From a virus: 34,714 nucleotides of DNA. The position numbers were made by a program, and so were the translations under genes. Positions 246 to 28,585 of this stretch are shown here, in pieces. The notes beneath the pieces were generated by a model. That model saw only the letters and a program-made list of their open reading frames with translations, ran no database searches and had not been told where the DNA came from. Every line of letters begins with the position of its first letter. Position 1 is the stretch's first letter. The stretch spans positions 1 to 34,714 of IMG/VR virus record IMGVR_UViG_3300039354_000359; one strand, written 5' to 3'.

Positions 246-1739
246 TTATAGTTCTACAGCAGCATCAAATGCAACGTATTGTGTTTCAGGGTGGAAACCA
301 GCTTCAACTAATGCGAATCTAGATTTAACAGCTACTTTAGGAGCCATAGTTCCTTCAGCAATTGTTTGTACTGATTCAGCCATTAGGTAAGGCATGAATA
401 CTAGACCAGGTCCATTTCCATCTCCTTTTCTACCAACTAATACTGTTTCTTTAGTCCATTCCCATTTTGGGTTAGTATAAACCTGAACACCAGCAACAGT
501 ACCTACAGGATAAATAGCACCTGCAGCTTGAGTAGCTGTGTTAGCGAATGGGTTAGGTACAAAACCTGAAACAGATTGAATAGCTGTAGCAACTTTAGGT
601 CCTACGACCGCGAAGTTACCAGCACCTCTTCTACCTCTGTTTGCAATAAGGTTAGCAGCAGCTAAAATACCAGTAAGTACTTTTCTGTGTTGAGAACCTT
701 CAGTTTGTCCACCAGATAATGTGTTACCAGAAGTGTTTGAGTAAGTAGCGTCAACATCAAATTCACCAGCAGTAAAACCAGCTTTTTGGATGTTTAATGC
801 TCCTAACTTAGCAATAGATTCAATAATTAAATCATTGATGTTCTGAGTGATTTCGTTAGTTAATACAGATTCTACTTGAGCAACTGCGTCAACACCGAAT
901 TGTTTTAAATCTTGAACTTGTTCTCTAGTAACTGCAGCAGCAACTTGATAAGTTTCAGCGCTTACTGACTTACTGAATAAAGAAAGTCCCATGATTTTGT
1001 CTGGAGTCGATTCTCCACCTTCTCTACTGTAAGGATTTCCATCCTCATCACCAGCTGAGAAACCTCTGATATGATCGTCAAGTGCAGCAACTAATTGTGC
1101 TTCACCATTTGCGAAAAGATCAGATGCTTTACTGATTCCGTTACCTGCAGCATCGATAAGGTCTTGTCCTGATTCTTCAATTTTCCAGATTTTATCTCCG
1201 TCAATTCTTGAAGTACCAACCTCAGTAATATCTCCTGCAACTGTAGCAGTAGATTCTGTTACAGTAGTTCCTTGAATTGAACCATTAGCACCATCACCAC
1301 CTTTTACATAAGTAGGTGCGTTTTTACCGTCTGCTCCACCAGCTTTTCCGATAGAACCTCCTTCGTATACGAAGTCTAGGTAAGAAAGTAGTCCCATAGG
1401 ACCAGCCATTGGTACAACTGGTACAAGGTCTAAACCTATTGTTTGAGCTGCAACTTGCATCGCTAAAGGAAGTAAAGTTGGAGCTTTGTCACCTGAACCT
1501 AATGCTCCAGTACCAGGTCCTGTTGTAAGAGCTGATTGTCCTGGGAATGCTGTTGCACCCATACCACCTAAGTTCATTCCTGGATTTAAAGTCATGATAG
1601 CTGCATCTTCATAAAGTTTATGATTGTGACAGTATTCAGACATCCATGCTAATTTTGAAGTATCTTGGATACCAGTAGCAGACTCGATAATTGGTGACCA
1701 AGTCTCTCTGATTTCCGCTTCATTAATTAAATTTGCCAT
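246..1739 (-). CDS. 23: major capsid protein (T4 gp23-like)
   Basis: Main shell subunit of the T4-like head. The 497-residue length fits the gp23 family. The region around residues 65-130 (TLLPLAMQVAAQTIGLDLV, PMAGPMGLLSYLDFVYEGG) resembles the stretch of gp23 that begins the HK97-type fold. The gene lies last in the order portal, core protein, protease-scaffold, capsid, which is the T4 head-gene order 20-67/68-21-22-23. T4 gp23 loses 65 residues to the prohead protease; here the only early match to the (L/I)-x-E site is LINE at residues 4-7, so processing would remove just seven residues, or may differ. A 198-base leader (1740-1937) holds a late-promoter-like motif and no gene. The stop at 246 is followed within about 35 bases by the foreign PsbO sequence, so the natural terminator is missing. 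Confidence 0.93.
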   Translation of the reverse strand: MANLINEAEIRETWSPIIESATGIQDTSKLAWMSEYCHNHKLYEDAAIMTLNPGMNLGGMGATAFPGQSALTTGPGTGALGSGDKAPTLLPLAMQVAAQTIGLDLVPVVPMAGPMGLLSYLDFVYEGGSIGKAGGADGKNAPTYVKGGDGANGSIQGTTVTESTATVAGDITEVGTSRIDGDKIWKIEESGQDLIDAAGNGISKASDLFANGEAQLVAALDDHIRGFSAGDEDGNPYSREGGESTPDKIMGLSLFSKSVSAETYQVAAAVTREQVQDLKQFGVDAVAQVESVLTNEITQNINDLIIESIAKLGALNIQKAGFTAGEFDVDATYSNTSGNTLSGGQTEGSQHRKVLTGILAAANLIANRGRRGAGNFAVVGPKVATAIQSVSGFVPNPFANTATQAAGAIYPVGTVAGVQVYTNPKWEWTKETVLVGRKGDGNGPGLVFMPYLMAESVQTIAEGTMAPKVAVKSRFALVEAGFHPETQYVAFDAAVEL

Positions 1740-1937: not shown

Positions 1938-2177
1938 TTATCTATTTTTAAAAATTTCTTTCCAGGTTTTCCAACCGTAATGGTTTTTAATATTCCAATA
2001 TAAACCTCCAAAGAAACTACCATAGGCTGCGATAAAGGTTGCTATTTTTAAATATAAAGTATCTAGGTACCCATCACTTAGCCAGAACGGCCATTGAATG
2101 CAAAGAAAAAGTGAAAAGGCTACTTGACCCCAGTTTAAGAATGTTCTAAATTTACTCTTTTTATTATTTAATGTCAT
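1938..2177 (-). CDS. small hypothetical membrane protein
   Basis: A 79-residue protein I do not recognise. It has a basic N-terminus (KKSKFR), then two hydrophobic stretches separated by a short polar loop: roughly residues 16-35 (VAFSLFLCIQWPFWL) and 43-63 (IATFIAAYGSFFGGLYW). It ends in a basic, Trp-rich tail. Topology is likely a two-helix hairpin in the inner membrane with both ends cytoplasmic. It sits alone between the terminator of the protease-scaffold gene and the capsid promoter motif, and has its own late-promoter-like motif 13 bases before the ATG. It is therefore probably a late gene. A holin-like role would be conceivable for a late two-helix protein, but nothing in the sequence shows it. 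Confidence 0.65.
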   Translation of the reverse strand: MTLNNKKSKFRTFLNWGQVAFSLFLCIQWPFWLSDGYLDTLYLKIATFIAAYGSFFGGLYWNIKNHYGWKTWKEIFKNR

Positions 2178-2198: not shown

Positions 2199-2221
2199 TA
2201 AATTTCACAAAAATTAGACAT

Positions 2222-2246
2222 AAAAAAACCCGATTTCACATCGGGT
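2222..2246 (-). terminator. intrinsic terminator after protease-scaffold gene
   Basis: Perfect 7-bp stem ACCCGAT (2228-2234) with ATCGGGT (2240-2246) and a 5-base loop. Read on the minus strand it is followed by seven T residues. It lies just after the stop of the protease-scaffold gene. Confidence 0.85.
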
Positions 2247-2272: not shown

Positions 2273-3550
2273 TTACTTCTTAAATCTCTTAGTAATTGCT
2301 TCTTTAACACTGTCTAATTCATAAGGTAACTTTTTAACTTCTTCTTTCTTAGATTCATTAATCATTTCAACTTTTTCCATTACTGGAGCAGTTTCTCTCA
2401 TATCTCTAGTTTGCCAAAAGTTTCTTACTTGATATTCAGTAGTTACTTTGTGCATTTTAGATTGTGCAATTAATTGTTTTTGTTTCTTTTCAGAAAGGTT
2501 AGACCATTTTTCTTTGTATTCAGCTGGCATTGCTTCTACTACGAAAGGTACATTATTTCCTGTTACTTCACTTATGTTAACGTTTTCCATGATTCTTACA
2601 ATCTGAGACTCTGTTAAGAACCCTGCATTTTCAACCTCTTTTCTTACGTGAGATTTTGCCTCTTCATTAAGTGTGTTGAATTTTTCTGCAGTTTTTGATG
2701 TTACAAGTTTAAAGAAGTGAGGATCTTTATTTTCTCTCTTTTCTTTTTTCTCTAAAAGTGCAGCTAATTTAGCTGAAATTTCTGATTTATATTCTTCTAC
2801 TTTATCTTGTGGTTCGTCAGCTGCGTCATCTCCTGAATTTGTAGGAGCAGTTTTTGTAGCAGGTTTGTGTTCGTCTGGAGTAGTAACGTCTTTTCTTTCG
2901 TCTGGAATATCTTCTTTCTCAACTCCTGAGTCTTCAGCACTTGCAGTGTTTGATTCTCCTGAGTTATCACCAACTTTTTCTAATTCGTTTTCTTCCTCTG
3001 CTTCATCATATTCTTTAGCAGTAACGTCATCGCTTTCTGTTACTAATTGCTCGTTAATAGACTCTGCAATATAGTTAGCGTATTCACTAACGTTTTGTAC
3101 GTTATCTTTTAAATAGTTTACGTATTCAATAAGTTTTTCATTTTGTTCTGCACCGCCATTATAAGTTTCTGCTAAATAATTAGTATAATCTTTAAGATTT
3201 GTTACTGATTCAGCAATGTGCTCTGAATAACTTATTCCTTGATCTGCTTTTTCAGCTACATGTTCTGTATACTGAATAGCCTGATCTGTTTTTTCTGCAA
3301 CGTATTGAGAATACTCAATCGCTGAGTTTGTTTTTTCTGCAACATACTTAACATATTCTGTTAAATTGTTTATTGATTCAACAATGTGATCGTTGTGAGC
3401 AGTTACAGTTTTAATGTCGTCATTAGTACTAGCAGATCCTTCATTTGAATTTTCCGATAGGTCTGTGAGAGCGGACTTTAACCCCTTTATTTGCTCAGCC
3501 AAATACTTAGTGTAATTGTTGAAGTCATCTGTTTTTACAAATTCTTCCAT
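2273..3550 (-). CDS. 22: possible nested scaffold-only product (internal start)
   Basis: Met206 of the fusion begins a 425-residue product starting MEEFVKTDDFNNYTKYLAE that coincides with the junction between protease and scaffold regions. The minus strand just before it reads AAAAAAGAGCAAAAAATG, an A-rich context like that of the true starts in this genome and with a weak AAGAG. A core needs many scaffold copies per protease copy, and nested in-frame scaffold genes are established in other phages (lambda C/Nu3). This is inference; no product is shown. Confidence 0.35.
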   Translation of the reverse strand: MEEFVKTDDFNNYTKYLAEQIKGLKSALTDLSENSNEGSASTNDDIKTVTAHNDHIVESINNLTEYVKYVAEKTNSAIEYSQYVAEKTDQAIQYTEHVAEKADQGISYSEHIAESVTNLKDYTNYLAETYNGGAEQNEKLIEYVNYLKDNVQNVSEYANYIAESINEQLVTESDDVTAKEYDEAEEENELEKVGDNSGESNTASAEDSGVEKEDIPDERKDVTTPDEHKPATKTAPTNSGDDAADEPQDKVEEYKSEISAKLAALLEKKEKRENKDPHFFKLVTSKTAEKFNTLNEEAKSHVRKEVENAGFLTESQIVRIMENVNISEVTGNNVPFVVEAMPAEYKEKWSNLSEKKQKQLIAQSKMHKVTTEYQVRNFWQTRDMRETAPVMEKVEMINESKKEEVKKLPYELDSVKEAITKRFKK

Positions 3551-4165
3551 TTTTTGCTCTTTTTTATTTTGTATTGGTTTATTAATTTCTTCGTTCTTTT
3601 TAAACATTTCATAAATGTATAGGCTATCATCATTGCTAAAACCGAAAGATTCATTTACTCTTGTCAATTCTGCATTAGCAAACCCAGGGTCTGCAACCAA
3701 GTCATAAGTGAAAAGTTGTTTGATTTTTACTTTACCTCCTTCTGAAACCTCTCCAGCTGCTCTTGAGCTGATATGTAAAGGAATTCCTGAATCAACAAGC
3801 GCCTTTGCCTGTCTTCCAGCGTCGGTATCTAGTAACTTAATTTTCCCCATAACTCTTTTAGATTCAGAGTCATATCTTACCTCCTCGATAACATGTGATA
3901 CATTCTTAAGGGAAATATCAAACTGCTGTGGATGGTCCAATTCACCTAAAAGTTTAGACGATTTGATTTTTTCTTGTAACGATTCTATTTGCGGTACGTA
4001 TTCGCTTTCGGTATAAATTCTGTTATTTTTATTCTTAACATCTATTTCTCCAAAAACCCCTTCTAGTACATAGTCCTTTTCTTCACCTGATTGGGTTAAA
4101 ACCGATGATGATTTTTCAACTATTAACAAATTATAATCGTTAGGCTTAGTGATAAGTCTATCCAT
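2273..4165 (-). CDS. 21-22: fused prohead protease and scaffold (gp21-gp22-like)
   Basis: A 630-residue protein joining two functions that are separate genes in T4. Residues 1 to about 175 look like the gp21-type serine protease that matures the prohead: GELDHP carries the candidate catalytic His78, and HISSRAAGEV carries candidate Ser133, with spacing typical of the family. From about 205 onward it is low-complexity and coiled-coil: eight 14-residue-type units at 260-373 (YVAEKT, HVAEKA, HIAESV), an acidic Ser/Thr-rich linker at about 375-465, then a charged helical tail ending KRFKK. This resembles gp22, the core that fills the prohead and is degraded during maturation. An internal ATG at 3550 (Met206) could give free scaffold. 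The gene lies between the core protein and capsid genes, as 21 and 22 do in T4. A frameshift joining two genes is unlikely because the frame is open throughout. Confidence 0.85.
   Translation of the reverse strand: MDRLITKPNDYNLLIVEKSSSVLTQSGEEKDYVLEGVFGEIDVKNKNNRIYTESEYVPQIESLQEKIKSSKLLGELDHPQQFDISLKNVSHVIEEVRYDSESKRVMGKIKLLDTDAGRQAKALVDSGIPLHISSRAAGEVSEGGKVKIKQLFTYDLVADPGFANAELTRVNESFGFSNDDSLYIYEMFKKNEEINKPIQNKKEQKMEEFVKTDDFNNYTKYLAEQIKGLKSALTDLSENSNEGSASTNDDIKTVTAHNDHIVESINNLTEYVKYVAEKTNSAIEYSQYVAEKTDQAIQYTEHVAEKADQGISYSEHIAESVTNLKDYTNYLAETYNGGAEQNEKLIEYVNYLKDNVQNVSEYANYIAESINEQLVTESDDVTAKEYDEAEEENELEKVGDNSGESNTASAEDSGVEKEDIPDERKDVTTPDEHKPATKTAPTNSGDDAADEPQDKVEEYKSEISAKLAALLEKKEKRENKDPHFFKLVTSKTAEKFNTLNEEAKSHVRKEVENAGFLTESQIVRIMENVNISEVTGNNVPFVVEAMPAEYKEKWSNLSEKKQKQLIAQSKMHKVTTEYQVRNFWQTRDMRETAPVMEKVEMINESKKEEVKKLPYELDSVKEAITKRFKK
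3047..3388 (-). repeat. 14-residue (42-base) scaffold repeat region
   Basis: Codes residues 260-373 of the protease-scaffold protein as about eight units with period 14 (one lengthened by 7): HIVES, YVAEKT, YVAEKT, HVAEKA, HIAESV, YLAETY, YLKDN, YIAES. The period is two heptads, as expected for a coiled coil. DNA copies have diverged, so the repeat is clearest in protein. Confidence 0.8.
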
Positions 4166-4186
4166 TGTGTTTTTCTTTGTTTTTTG

Positions 4187-4195
4187 TATATATCT
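4187..4195 (-). promoter_or_regulatory. late-promoter-like motif upstream of protease-scaffold gene
   Basis: Minus strand AAATAGATATATACAAAA, 21 bases before the ATG at 4165. Same core as before the capsid and acidic-protein genes. Confidence 0.5.
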
Positions 4196-4220
4196 ATTTA
4201 TTTAATTACTTTTTTAAATT

Positions 4221-4565
4221 TTATAATCCGGCTAGTGGGTCCTCTTCTTCTCCGCCTCCATCACCGCCTTCTTTCTCAGCTTCTTTCTCTTTGGCTGCTA
4301 CTTCTTTGTAATAATCGTTGTAGTCGGTTACCATCTGTCCCATTGTTCCGGTATCAAATTTAGTTGAACCATATCTATCATAAAAATAGGCTTTAAATTC
4401 ATCTTCAGTTTCTGAAGCTAAAACCTGTCCTAATATTTCCTGTGCTGGAATAAGTTTTCCATCTGCAGTCTTTTGATCGCTTACTTCTACTTCACTATCT
4501 TCACCTGCTTTTATTGATGTAAGCATCTTTTCTTCTAGGTATTGTTCAAATGTTTTATATTTCAT
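4221..4565 (-). CDS. acidic prohead core protein (gp67/68 position) with capsid-targeting N-terminus
   Basis: A 114-residue acidic protein between portal and prohead protease, exactly where T4 encodes the small core proteins gp67 and gp68. It begins MKYKTFEQYLEEK, matching the T4 capsid-targeting pattern, with a gp21-type cut expected after LEE at residue 12. The middle contains EDEFKAYFYDRYGSTKFDTG and a Tyr-rich DYNDYYKEV. The C-terminus is highly charged (KEKEAEKE) and ends with GGGEEEDPLAGL. I infer an internal core component packed with the scaffold and processed by the protease. Sequence similarity to gp67 is limited to size class, acidity and position. A late-promoter-like motif stands only 4 bases before the ATG. 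Confidence 0.6.
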   Translation of the reverse strand: MKYKTFEQYLEEKMLTSIKAGEDSEVEVSDQKTADGKLIPAQEILGQVLASETEDEFKAYFYDRYGSTKFDTGTMGQMVTDYNDYYKEVAAKEKEAEKEGGDGGGEEEDPLAGL

Positions 4566-4569
4566 AACT

Positions 4570-4578
4570 TATATATCT
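4570..4578 (-). promoter_or_regulatory. late-promoter-like motif abutting start codon of core protein
   Basis: Minus strand AAGATATATAAGTT directly followed by ATG. If this is a -10 element, the transcript would begin at or inside the start codon region, so it may produce a leaderless mRNA or serve a downstream Met. Confidence 0.4.
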
Positions 4579-4580
4579 TT

Positions 4581-6182
4581 TTACATCGCCATTGGATCTT
4601 CTGGTTCTGGAGCCAATTCGTCATTTTTAGCCTCTTTAGCCTTAGCAGCCTCATTTGCAGCCATATCATCTGGAGACAATTGTAAATATCTGTCTACCAA
4701 GAAGCCCATATCAAAGTAATATTCTTCTTCCATAGTCTCTTGATTTGTTGTCATTAATGAATCTCTCATCGATCCAATAAATTCAAGTCTACGTTCCATG
4801 ATTTCCATTTCTTTTAGGGCTGCAAAATCATTATCTCTATTATAACGTAATGCTACTTGAGTTTTAAATTGTGGATCTTCTGCAAGGTCTTTATATTTAA
4901 TACACATTTGCAAATAGAGTGGCTTTACTAATATTTCTTGGAAAGCAGCTCTTAATCTTTTTACAAATTTACTGAATTTAATCTCATCTCTAATCATTCC
5001 ATCTGCAGCAAGGTTAAAGTCTCCACCACCATCTTCATATAAGAATCTTGAGTATGGTATTTTAGAAACATGCTTAAGTTTATCTGAGAAATACTTAAGT
5101 GCTTCTACGTCTGACATATCAGGTCCTGAACTGTCTAGTGTTTCTATTTCTGGACTTTCTCCATCTTTACTTGGTAACCAATACTCTTTATTAAATTGTA
5201 ACATTGGTTTTCCATCTGTTTCCATTGAACCTGATTCCCAATCAAAATCAACCACTTCTTTATATGAATTCATTAACTGTGCAAGGGATTGTTTTGCTCT
5301 TGTTTTTGATTTACCACCAACTGGTATAACAAATTTCATTCTATAAGAACTATTGGTCACTGCCCAAATAATTCTTGTATGTTCCATTATTCTTAATAGA
5401 TTAAACGATCTGGTTAATCTCTCAACGTAGGATACTCTTGATGCTGTTGTAATTGAAGAATATGAAAGGTAAATAACCTGTGAGTCGTAAAGCTTTCTCT
5501 CTTTTACTGGGTCATCTTTAAATTGTATCCATACTTTTTTACCGTCTTCATTATTATATCCTGGTACAAGATTAACAGGGTCCAGTTCTTTAAAACCGAT
5601 AATCTCAGTTTGATCTGGTGAATAGATAATTTCAAATGCTAAATAACCATCAATTAACCATTTTCTAAAATAATACCAGGCTGATTGGTCTGAATTAAAA
5701 CCAAATGCATGATAAATTTGTCTAAAATATCTGTTAAGGTCTTTTTGAATTCCTTCTGCAACTTCAACTCCTAAAATCTCAGGAGAACCAATAAAGTTTT
5801 TATTATCATATACTATTGTTTCATCACAAAGAATATCTAATATATCTTCTATTTCGTCATTTACTGAAAACCTTCTAAGTTCATCTCTTTTAACAACATA
5901 TTGCTGGTCAAAGAAAGGAACATTTTTTCTCATGGTCGTATCGGCCATAGAGAGGGCGGCAAACGCAGCATACATGTCATCATTGTCTACACCCATAGGG
6001 TTCATAATGCCATATCCAAACTGGTCTTCTAAAGGACCAATAGCTTGAGATTGCCTCAATATCATGTCATCGTACCTCATTCCAAACGAGGACAATGTCT
6101 TAAGTGTATTACTTAGAGTAAAAGGTCTTTTCCCTGTACTCCACGGTCCGTTTCTCGGATCTTTATCTGCAAAACCTGCCAT
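4581..6182 (-). CDS. 20: portal vertex protein (T4 gp20-like)
   Basis: A 533-residue portal subunit, the dodecameric ring at the head vertex through which DNA enters and on which the tail assembles. The length matches T4 gp20 (524). Family-typical segments are FGFNSDQSAWYYFRKWLIDG (about residues 160-180), FKELDPVNLVPGY, and KEYWLPSKDGESPEIETLDS, followed by DVEALKYFSDKLKHVSKIPY and SRFLYEDGG. The C-terminal tail is rich in Ala and acidic residues (EAAKAKEAK, APEPEDP). It is the first gene of the late head cluster in transcription order, preceded by a variant late-promoter motif and followed after 15 bases by the core protein gene. No irregularity is seen. Confidence 0.93.
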   Translation of the reverse strand: MAGFADKDPRNGPWSTGKRPFTLSNTLKTLSSFGMRYDDMILRQSQAIGPLEDQFGYGIMNPMGVDNDDMYAAFAALSMADTTMRKNVPFFDQQYVVKRDELRRFSVNDEIEDILDILCDETIVYDNKNFIGSPEILGVEVAEGIQKDLNRYFRQIYHAFGFNSDQSAWYYFRKWLIDGYLAFEIIYSPDQTEIIGFKELDPVNLVPGYNNEDGKKVWIQFKDDPVKERKLYDSQVIYLSYSSITTASRVSYVERLTRSFNLLRIMEHTRIIWAVTNSSYRMKFVIPVGGKSKTRAKQSLAQLMNSYKEVVDFDWESGSMETDGKPMLQFNKEYWLPSKDGESPEIETLDSSGPDMSDVEALKYFSDKLKHVSKIPYSRFLYEDGGGDFNLAADGMIRDEIKFSKFVKRLRAAFQEILVKPLYLQMCIKYKDLAEDPQFKTQVALRYNRDNDFAALKEMEIMERRLEFIGSMRDSLMTTNQETMEEEYYFDMGFLVDRYLQLSPDDMAANEAAKAKEAKNDELAPEPEDPMAM

Positions 6183-7968: not shown

Positions 7969-8209
7969 TTAAATTGTTTCAGTATTTGCTAAACTTATAT
8001 GTCTTTTTAAAACTTTAGTTGGTTGTTCTCCAATAAAAACTGTAATATTTTCATCGGCTCCTGAAGTTGTGTAGTCTTCTGCGTCTACTTTCATTTCTGT
8101 TCCTTCAGCATGGTTTTCAGTTTTTCTATTAAGAGTTGCTGGTACATAACCATCTGCTCTATTTACAGATATTTCTGTTTCTAAACCGGCCTCGTTAGTT
8201 TTTTTTTTT
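7969..8209 (-). other. frameshifted C-terminal extension of the acidic protein
   Basis: The stretch after the stop of the acidic protein is open in the -1 frame for 76 codons. It begins inside an 11-base A run (8199-8209) and reads TNEAGLETEISVNRADGYVP, then KTENHAEGTEMKVDAEDY and ENITVFIGEQPTKVLK, ending at a TAA at 7969-7971. It looks like real protein and fills an otherwise empty 230-base gap. A single missing A in the run, or -1 slippage, would join it to the upstream gene, giving about 455 residues. Confidence 0.7.
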
Positions 8210-9326
8210 CAGCTTCTAACTCTTCAGATTCTTCAACATCGCTTTCTCCTTCATCTTCAACCTCATCATCTTCTTTAGATTCTGGTGCAACTTCGTCTCC
8301 AGCGTCTTCTCCACTTGCATCAGGTGCTTCAGCAGTAGCCTCTTCTCCTTCCTCTTCTCTATCTTCTTCGTTGTCTACTTCTTCAGCATCAGATTCTACT
8401 TCTTCAGCAGGTTCTCCAGCCTCTTCGCCATCTTCCATTGAATCGGTATCAGCGGCATCGCTTGAAGCCTCTTCCATATCTGCAGGTCCTTTTGTTGTAT
8501 TTTCATCTTCAACATCTTGTTCAAGTTCATGTTCTTCGGCAGTTTGCGCTGTAAATTCTTCAAAGGATTGAATTTCTTCTTCAAGTCTTTTGATTTCATC
8601 ATTAATAAGAGTGTCCGCCTGCTTGATTTCTTCTACAGATTTATCAGCCTCTGCGATAATTCCTCTTTGGTCTTTAAGAAATGCTACCATCTCTTCTAAC
8701 TTGTCTATTTCAACTTGTCTTTCTGCTGCCTTTACTCTTTCTCCTTCTAAAAGTTCTGCAGTCATGTCAGCCAGTTCATATCCAGTCTGTTCTTTAATAT
8801 AATCAAAGGCTTCATTAGCGTTTAATTTTCCAAACTTATAGATTTTATTTGCTTCGTTCATTCTATAAATAAAGAAGTCTTCGTTAAGTTTCATAACATA
8901 ACATTTAACAGATCCTTCTTCTATTTTCTGAGCGAATTCTAAAACAGAATATCTGTTATAATTATTACAAGCAAATTCAAAAAGATCGATTTTTGATTTT
9001 TGATTATAATTTACTACACCTGAAAGTAATAGGTGGTTTGATATACTTTCTCCTAACATTTCTGTATTGTTAAGATATGTTTTATTTGTTTCTGCGAAAT
9101 ATCTTATTTTCGTAGCTCCATTATACCATGTGATACCGCTTTCTGTAATTTGAAAATGTTCTAGAGCAAGTGCAAGATTTCTAAATTCTCCTGGAGAACT
9201 CATGATATTCGCCTCTTCTATTTGGTTTTCTTTTACTAAAAAAGCTTTACCATCTAAACAAATAAATGTATCACCATTCTCGTTAACGTGTAGCGGTGAA
9301 ATAATTTCTTTTGTAACTTTTGCCAT
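8181..9326 (-). CDS. acidic coiled-coil protein, probably truncated by a frameshift
   Basis: A 381-residue protein I do not recognise. Residues 1-195 are globular (DTFICLDGKAFLVKENQIEE, then EFRNLALALEHF, FFIYRMNEANKIYKFGKL). About 195-265 is a coiled coil (KAAERQVEIDKLEEMVAFLK, EIKRLEEEIQSFEEF). About 265-370 is an extremely acidic, Ala/Ser-rich low-complexity tract. The annotated end KKKLTRPV comes directly after a run of 11 A residues, and the next 76 codons are open in another frame, so the true protein probably ends near 7969. It has a late-promoter-like motif 33 bases upstream, which suggests a late virion or assembly protein. The acidic tract recalls scaffold or core proteins, but there is no family match I can defend. 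Confidence 0.75.
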   Translation of the reverse strand: MAKVTKEIISPLHVNENGDTFICLDGKAFLVKENQIEEANIMSSPGEFRNLALALEHFQITESGITWYNGATKIRYFAETNKTYLNNTEMLGESISNHLLLSGVVNYNQKSKIDLFEFACNNYNRYSVLEFAQKIEEGSVKCYVMKLNEDFFIYRMNEANKIYKFGKLNANEAFDYIKEQTGYELADMTAELLEGERVKAAERQVEIDKLEEMVAFLKDQRGIIAEADKSVEEIKQADTLINDEIKRLEEEIQSFEEFTAQTAEEHELEQDVEDENTTKGPADMEEASSDAADTDSMEDGEEAGEPAEEVESDAEEVDNEEDREEEGEEATAEAPDASGEDAGDEVAPESKEDDEVEDEGESDVEESEELEAEKKKLTRPV

Positions 9327-28576: not shown

Positions 28577-28585
28577 TATATATCT
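28577..28585 (-). promoter_or_regulatory. late-promoter-like motif upstream of 93-residue gene
   Basis: Minus strand AGAGATATATACTAAAA, 20 bases before the ATG at 28556 and just after the glycosyltransferase stop. Confidence 0.5.

Follow-up and report, generated by a model that had tools for sequence, protein, structure and literature searches.

A protease–scaffold fusion gene in a T4-related phage, with a proposed nested start for the putative scaffold

A T4-related phage appears to encode its prohead protease and its putative scaffold in a single gene with two starts, the second of which would open a nested, in-frame scaffold gene; we put the probability of this reading at roughly three in four. 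The window, that is, the whole stretch of DNA analysed, is a virus contig of 34.7 kb whose T4-type head genes all lie on the minus strand. The features that bear on the argument are listed below.

4581..6182, minus strand: portal gp20 (Pfam Portal_T4, E 5e-71)
4221..4565, minus strand: acidic ORF of 114 aa at the T4 gp67/68 position, assigned by position only
4187..4194, minus strand: GATATATA, late-promoter candidate for the fused gene, 29 nt before its start
2273..4165, minus strand: fused ORF of 630 aa, prohead protease and putative scaffold, with an ATG start and no internal stop
3608..4165, minus strand: S77 (gp21-type) protease domain, residues 1-186, with invariant H78 and S134
3608..3616, minus strand: I-Y-E, residues 184-186, candidate self-release site of the L/I-x-E type
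3551..3607, minus strand: A-rich, hypervariable linker, residues 187-205, preceding the proposed internal start
3548..3550, minus strand: Met206, proposed internal start codon (3550-3548)
2276..3550, minus strand: scaffold-like half, residues 206-630, which is 425 aa long with Met206 as its start
3167..3346, minus strand: 14-residue repeats with (Y/H)xAE, residues 274-333, predicted helical
2221..2246, minus strand: intrinsic terminator after the fused gene, a GC stem followed by a seven-T run on the minus strand (the scan listed the stem on the other strand)
1938-2177, minus strand: hydrophobic ORF of 79 aa between the putative scaffold and gp23, preceded by a GATATATA copy of its own
246..1739, minus strand: major capsid protein gp23 (Pfam Gp23, E 1e-43)

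The two halves of the fused reading frame

The original prediction, made from the DNA alone, described one continuous frame of 630 codons, and the ORF is indeed stop-free from its ATG onwards. It also assigned the N-terminal part to a gp21-type protease with the motifs GELDHP and HISSRAAG, and this assignment is borne out by the motifs, by the S77 profile and by the predicted fold. In a Pfam search the 630-aa ORF gave S77 and S80 matches and no match to a ClpP-like (S49) protease; residues 29-143 match Peptidase_S77 (PF03420; E 3e-12, 46.8 bits vs a cut-off of 27), while residues 5-557 match PHROG 207, 'head maturation protease' (E 4e-38). With a profile of 17 relatives, the sole significant PDB match was 5JBL, the crystal structure of T4 gp21 (E 1e-5). 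Both H78 (in GELDHP) and S134 (in HISSRAAG) are invariant over 60 relatives and, in the profile alignment, fall on the corresponding motifs of 5JBL, whose chain has Ala for the His. A structure prediction for the N-terminal part had been suggested as a check, and our model of residues 1-190 (60 sequences, mean pLDDT 79) superimposes on 5JBL with Z 17.4 and an rmsd of 2.0 over 138 residues (Foldseek E 1.5e-7). Behind gp21, the model next resembles herpesvirus proteases, with Z of 7.4 or less, the highest being VZV 1VZV over 103 residues, a value under the safe level of the tool, which warns that scores in this range may reflect a merely common arrangement; the herpesvirus and phage proteases are distant homologs at most. 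As judged from sequence and model together, residues 1-186 are an S77 (T4 gp21-type) prohead protease, and its cleavage activity is predicted. T4 gp21 is known to cut after L/I-x-E and to be processed at its own C-terminus (PMC9026906). Of 124 distinct relatives, 113 read I[YF]E at the candidate self-release site that closes the domain, nine have D and two have Q, and cleavage after I-Y-E186 may be inferred from it.

The C-terminal half lies between protease and gp23, is acidic and predicted to be helical, and contains 25 (I/L/V)xE motifs vs 10.6 in shuffled sequences (z 5.3, an inflated value since the shuffles ignore the repeat structure). For comparison, gp22 of RB6 has 20 such motifs vs 10.1 in its shuffles (z 3.9), and T4 gp22 is cut to pieces by gp21 (PMC9026906). 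A spacing of 14 residues dominates the repeats of the relatives, which possess 2-12 motif copies. In some huge phages (L066, L067, L068, L069) the scaffold halves contain as many as a dozen almost perfect 14-residue repeats similar to SEYIAENLDKNIAY, with one (I/L/V)AE motif per repeat, and the copy number differs among relatives. No homology to gp22 was found in hhalign comparisons with eight separate scaffold or scaffold-annotated proteins (probability <1%), so the scaffold identity is founded on position, on the predicted helices with their 14-residue repeat and on motif enrichment. Residues 206-630 are accordingly termed scaffold-like and considered a putative scaffold. The earlier description of this half as a coiled-coil core protein is supported by the predicted helices and the strict 14-residue period; the full-length model in which the helices appear (17 sequences) reached a pLDDT of 46, too poor for use.

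The two small ORFs that flank the fused gene gave no match (114 aa; Pfam and PHROG searches) and no significant family match (79 aa). Elsewhere in the window, an ORF of 381 aa (8181-9326, minus strand) has a strongly acidic C-terminus and 16 (I/L/V)xE motifs; family searches gave no significant match for it, and it is possibly a further prohead-core protein.

The proposed start at Met206

An anchor downstream of the boundary between the halves, picked regardless of Met, could be located in 138 loci (82 distinct). A boundary ATG lies 8-14 residues before it in 82/82 distinct homologs, although these are related to each other and the count therefore amounts to far fewer independent observations. 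Met occupies only 1.7% of the remaining linker residues, and at this rate chance alone would put a Met into a seven-position span in roughly one of nine lineages. Counted from DPGF, the Met is 42 to 65 residues away, depending on the relative. In divergent relatives the linker is shifted by 3-5 residues and the Met moves along with the boundary, for instance in NTNTIM/ENQARFV and NKTM/VNEENSKLV compared with EQKM/EEFVKTDD (slash after the Met).

The nucleotide context points in the same direction. The original prediction placed Met206 exactly at the boundary in an A-rich context, and we find 16 A in the 20 nt before the codon, a number matched by 0/247 other in-frame internal Mets of the window's genes; the Lys/Asn-rich linker residues account for part of this richness. 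With a start-site matrix built from the 38 genes of the window, Met206 ranks third of 248, and two others reach or exceed its score. The genes of this phage start behind A-rich DNA without Shine-Dalgarno sequences, and start sites in Flavobacterium are characterised by A at -3, which promotes initiation, by weak structure and by few other AUGs (PMC6847099). Compared with the rest of its own ORF, the site of the homologs ranks at a median of 0.6% by number of A in the 24 nt that precede the ATG, at 4.7% by synonymous A excess (the part not set by the choice of amino acids) and at 7% by weakness of folding. In the 67 contexts from the window's lineage, A stands at -3 in 59, and ATG occurs 0 times in -21..-1 and twice in +4..+24, where about 23 would be expected in each interval. 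Overall, the nested scaffold start proposed at Met206 is strongly supported by the sequence.

The signs are weaker in a second lineage, made up of huge phages. Its 59 contexts hold 34 and 39 ATGs in the two intervals, so AUG is not depleted, the mean A content before the Met is only 10.2/20, and the Met is embedded in conserved amino acids (LFNMNKNEFV). In one locus of this lineage (L225) the boundary Met is present and displaced by one residue (LFMDN vs LFNMN). Lak phages show no clearly assignable boundary Met. We regard nesting as well supported for the window's lineage, and the nested start as much better supported there than in the huge-phage lineage; in that lineage and in Lak phages a nested start may exist.

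The fused gene could also do without an internal start, in which case each scaffold would carry a protease, self-cleavage in the linker would follow assembly and Met206 would be an ordinary conserved residue. The conserved I-Y-E at the end of the protease domain and the processing of T4 gp21 at its C-terminus fit this scheme, and protease–scaffold–capsid fusions exist in small actinophages (PMC7302621). We consider it unlikely, though still the strongest competitor, as it leaves unexplained why an invariant ATG persists in a hypervariable linker, why the Met shifts with the boundary and why its context is A-rich and depleted of AUG.

Scaffold alone might instead come from a separate, nested transcript whose promoter lies within the protease gene, the way HSV-1 makes UL26.5 (PMC2949831). 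The distribution of GATATATA, a candidate for the late promoter of this phage group, makes this very improbable. The motif, which resembles T4 TATAAATA yet is not equal to it, is located on the minus strand of the window at 28584, 25838, 24705, 21782, 9367, 4577, 4194, 2197 and 1838; all nine copies are intergenic and situated 12-130 nt before a start codon, and none was found on the window's other strand. In 632 kb of related loci it occurs 266 times on the coding strand and 0 times on the opposite strand. All distinct relatives (70/70) carry it no more than 120 nt before the fused ORF, near -30 where shown, and none of these 70 has a copy inside that ORF. Matches to sigma-70-like sites in the region are no more frequent than in shuffles. 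An internal promoter of either kind was rejected on these counts, and one of another type may exist. Since GATATATA is always upstream and never inside the fused ORF, scaffold alone should arise by internal translation. With this motif upstream and the terminator downstream there is probably one transcript, and if two products are made from it, there would be two translation starts.

Distribution and age of the fused gene

The original prediction recommended a search for the same fusion in related contigs, and it proved to be present in every full-length relative examined, namely about 200 IMG/VR loci, five huge-phage genomes (LR756500, LR756504, LR745206, LR756501 and LR756502) and the Lak phages (Lak-A1, Lak-B4 and Lak-C1). 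The IMG/VR loci came from a first search (57 loci, 48 of them long enough for the whole or nearly whole ORF), from a search with the protease profile (80 loci, on contigs partly shared with the first) and from the second, huge-phage lineage (about 79 loci); in all three sets a single ORF was seen wherever the contig was long enough. The full-length ORFs are stop-free and about 600-830 aa long. The Lak-B4 ORF is fused provided that six in-frame TAG codons stand for Gln; these six lie in the ORF around 3400-5200 of this locus (L232), and the Lak-A1 and Lak-C1 homologs have none. The Lak protease, used as a query, retrieved one contig only.

As had been stated for T4, genes 21 and 22 are two genes in T4-type phages. 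We found them separate in RB6 (T4-type), S-MbCM6, Mosig, F357, 7t3, PA5oct and PAU; the phages with two genes comprise T4-type, cyano-, Pelagibacter, Campylobacter and jumbo phages. Among the about 200 related loci, separate 21 and 22 genes were found in none, and the reading of the gene as a protease–scaffold fusion is supported in the absence of unfused close relatives. An assembly or sequencing artefact joining genes 21 and 22, suggested by the two genes that are standard in T4, is rejected as practically inconceivable, because every full-length relative carries the same fusion, whether its contig stems from one of many metagenomes or belongs to a deposited genome of a huge phage or a Lak phage.

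In the protease-domain tree the fused lineages group with full support, and the unfused Sphingomonas phage PAU adjoins Lak on long branches; both one fusion with a later split and two fusions are therefore possible. This sequence comparison marks the fusion as an ancient trait of a phage superclade, of single or double origin. A search of bacterial and archaeal genomes for a host link found no relative; the hosts of this large virus family are probably Bacteroidota, and the moraphages, which are aquatic and related to Lak, are probable flavobacterial phages (PMC12619734). We are somewhat inclined to extend the interpretation to a whole superclade of large T4-related phages, mostly of Bacteroidota, in which one protease–scaffold gene would be read from two Shine-Dalgarno-free starts as a prokaryotic counterpart of UL26/UL26.5, in a phage protease family whose structure may resemble that of herpesvirus assemblin. 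If this is true, Lak-type phages and other huge phages have their scaffold identified, and the strength of initiation sets the ratio of protease to scaffold.

Proposed mechanism and comparison with known systems

According to the two-start reading, a single transcript would run from the GATATATA-type promoter to the intrinsic terminator. Initiation at ATG1 would give the 630-residue protease–scaffold, and initiation at ATG206, an A-rich site of the Bacteroidota type, would give an excess of the 425-residue scaffold on its own. Through its scaffold half the fusion product may co-assemble and so carry the protease into the prohead core, the bulk of which would be supplied by scaffold alone. After assembly the protease would cut itself free, probably behind I-Y-E186, and then degrade the scaffold at the numerous (I/L/V)xE motifs, so that the head has room for DNA. 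The two products, their ratio, the co-assembly and the self-cleavage are all inferred from sequence features. T4 employs about 576 gp22 to 100 gp21 (PMC5694885); given this imbalance a strict 1:1 fusion would be unusual, and the nested start would restore a T4-like excess of scaffold over protease.

Head assembly depends critically on the stoichiometry of scaffold and protease, and as of 2017 a gp22 counterpart had yet to be confirmed in a giant phage (PMC5694885). Our finding offers a scaffold candidate for a very large, uncultured phage group and shows how two T4 genes can be one. Moreover, the fused gene is a clean test case of internal initiation in phages whose hosts do without Shine-Dalgarno sequences. 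Nested protease–scaffold genes are already known from herpesviruses (PMC2949831) and from lambda C/nu3 (PMC11739229). A protease–scaffold fusion with a proposed nested start in the T4 gp21 family appears to be new: our literature search, which covered few subscription journals, found no description of a gp21–gp22 fusion or of a nested gp22.

The likeness to T4 genes 21 and 22 comprises the protease fold, the active-site motifs, a scaffold rich in (I/L/V)xE and the gene order portal – small core ORF – protease – scaffold – gp23. T4 differs in having two genes, and the scaffold halves are without sequence homology. T4 gp21 itself has a second, internal start (Met45) that is required for head assembly (PMC9026906), but it yields a shorter protease and not a scaffold. 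The Lak phages and the huge phages LR756500-504 and LR745206 possess a homologous fused gene.

The closest analogues are herpesvirus UL26/UL26.5 and lambda C/Nu3. Lambda Nu3 is the in-frame 3' part of C, and the C protease is ClpP-like and of an unrelated family. The overlap of the scaffold gene nu3 with the protease gene C (PMC11739229) is combined with an S49 enzyme, whereas the fused ORF described here encodes an S77 protease and lacks an S49 match in Pfam. In UL26/UL26.5, as in the phage gene, an N-terminal protease is fused to a C-terminal scaffold, here a putative one. The herpesvirus gene has a nested in-frame product of scaffold alone, which is predicted here from a start-like ATG; UL26.5 has its own promoter (PMC2949831), unlike the fused ORFs, which contain no internal copy of the promoter-like motif. 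The phage gene would parallel the nested herpesvirus arrangement within a presumed single lineage of proteases.
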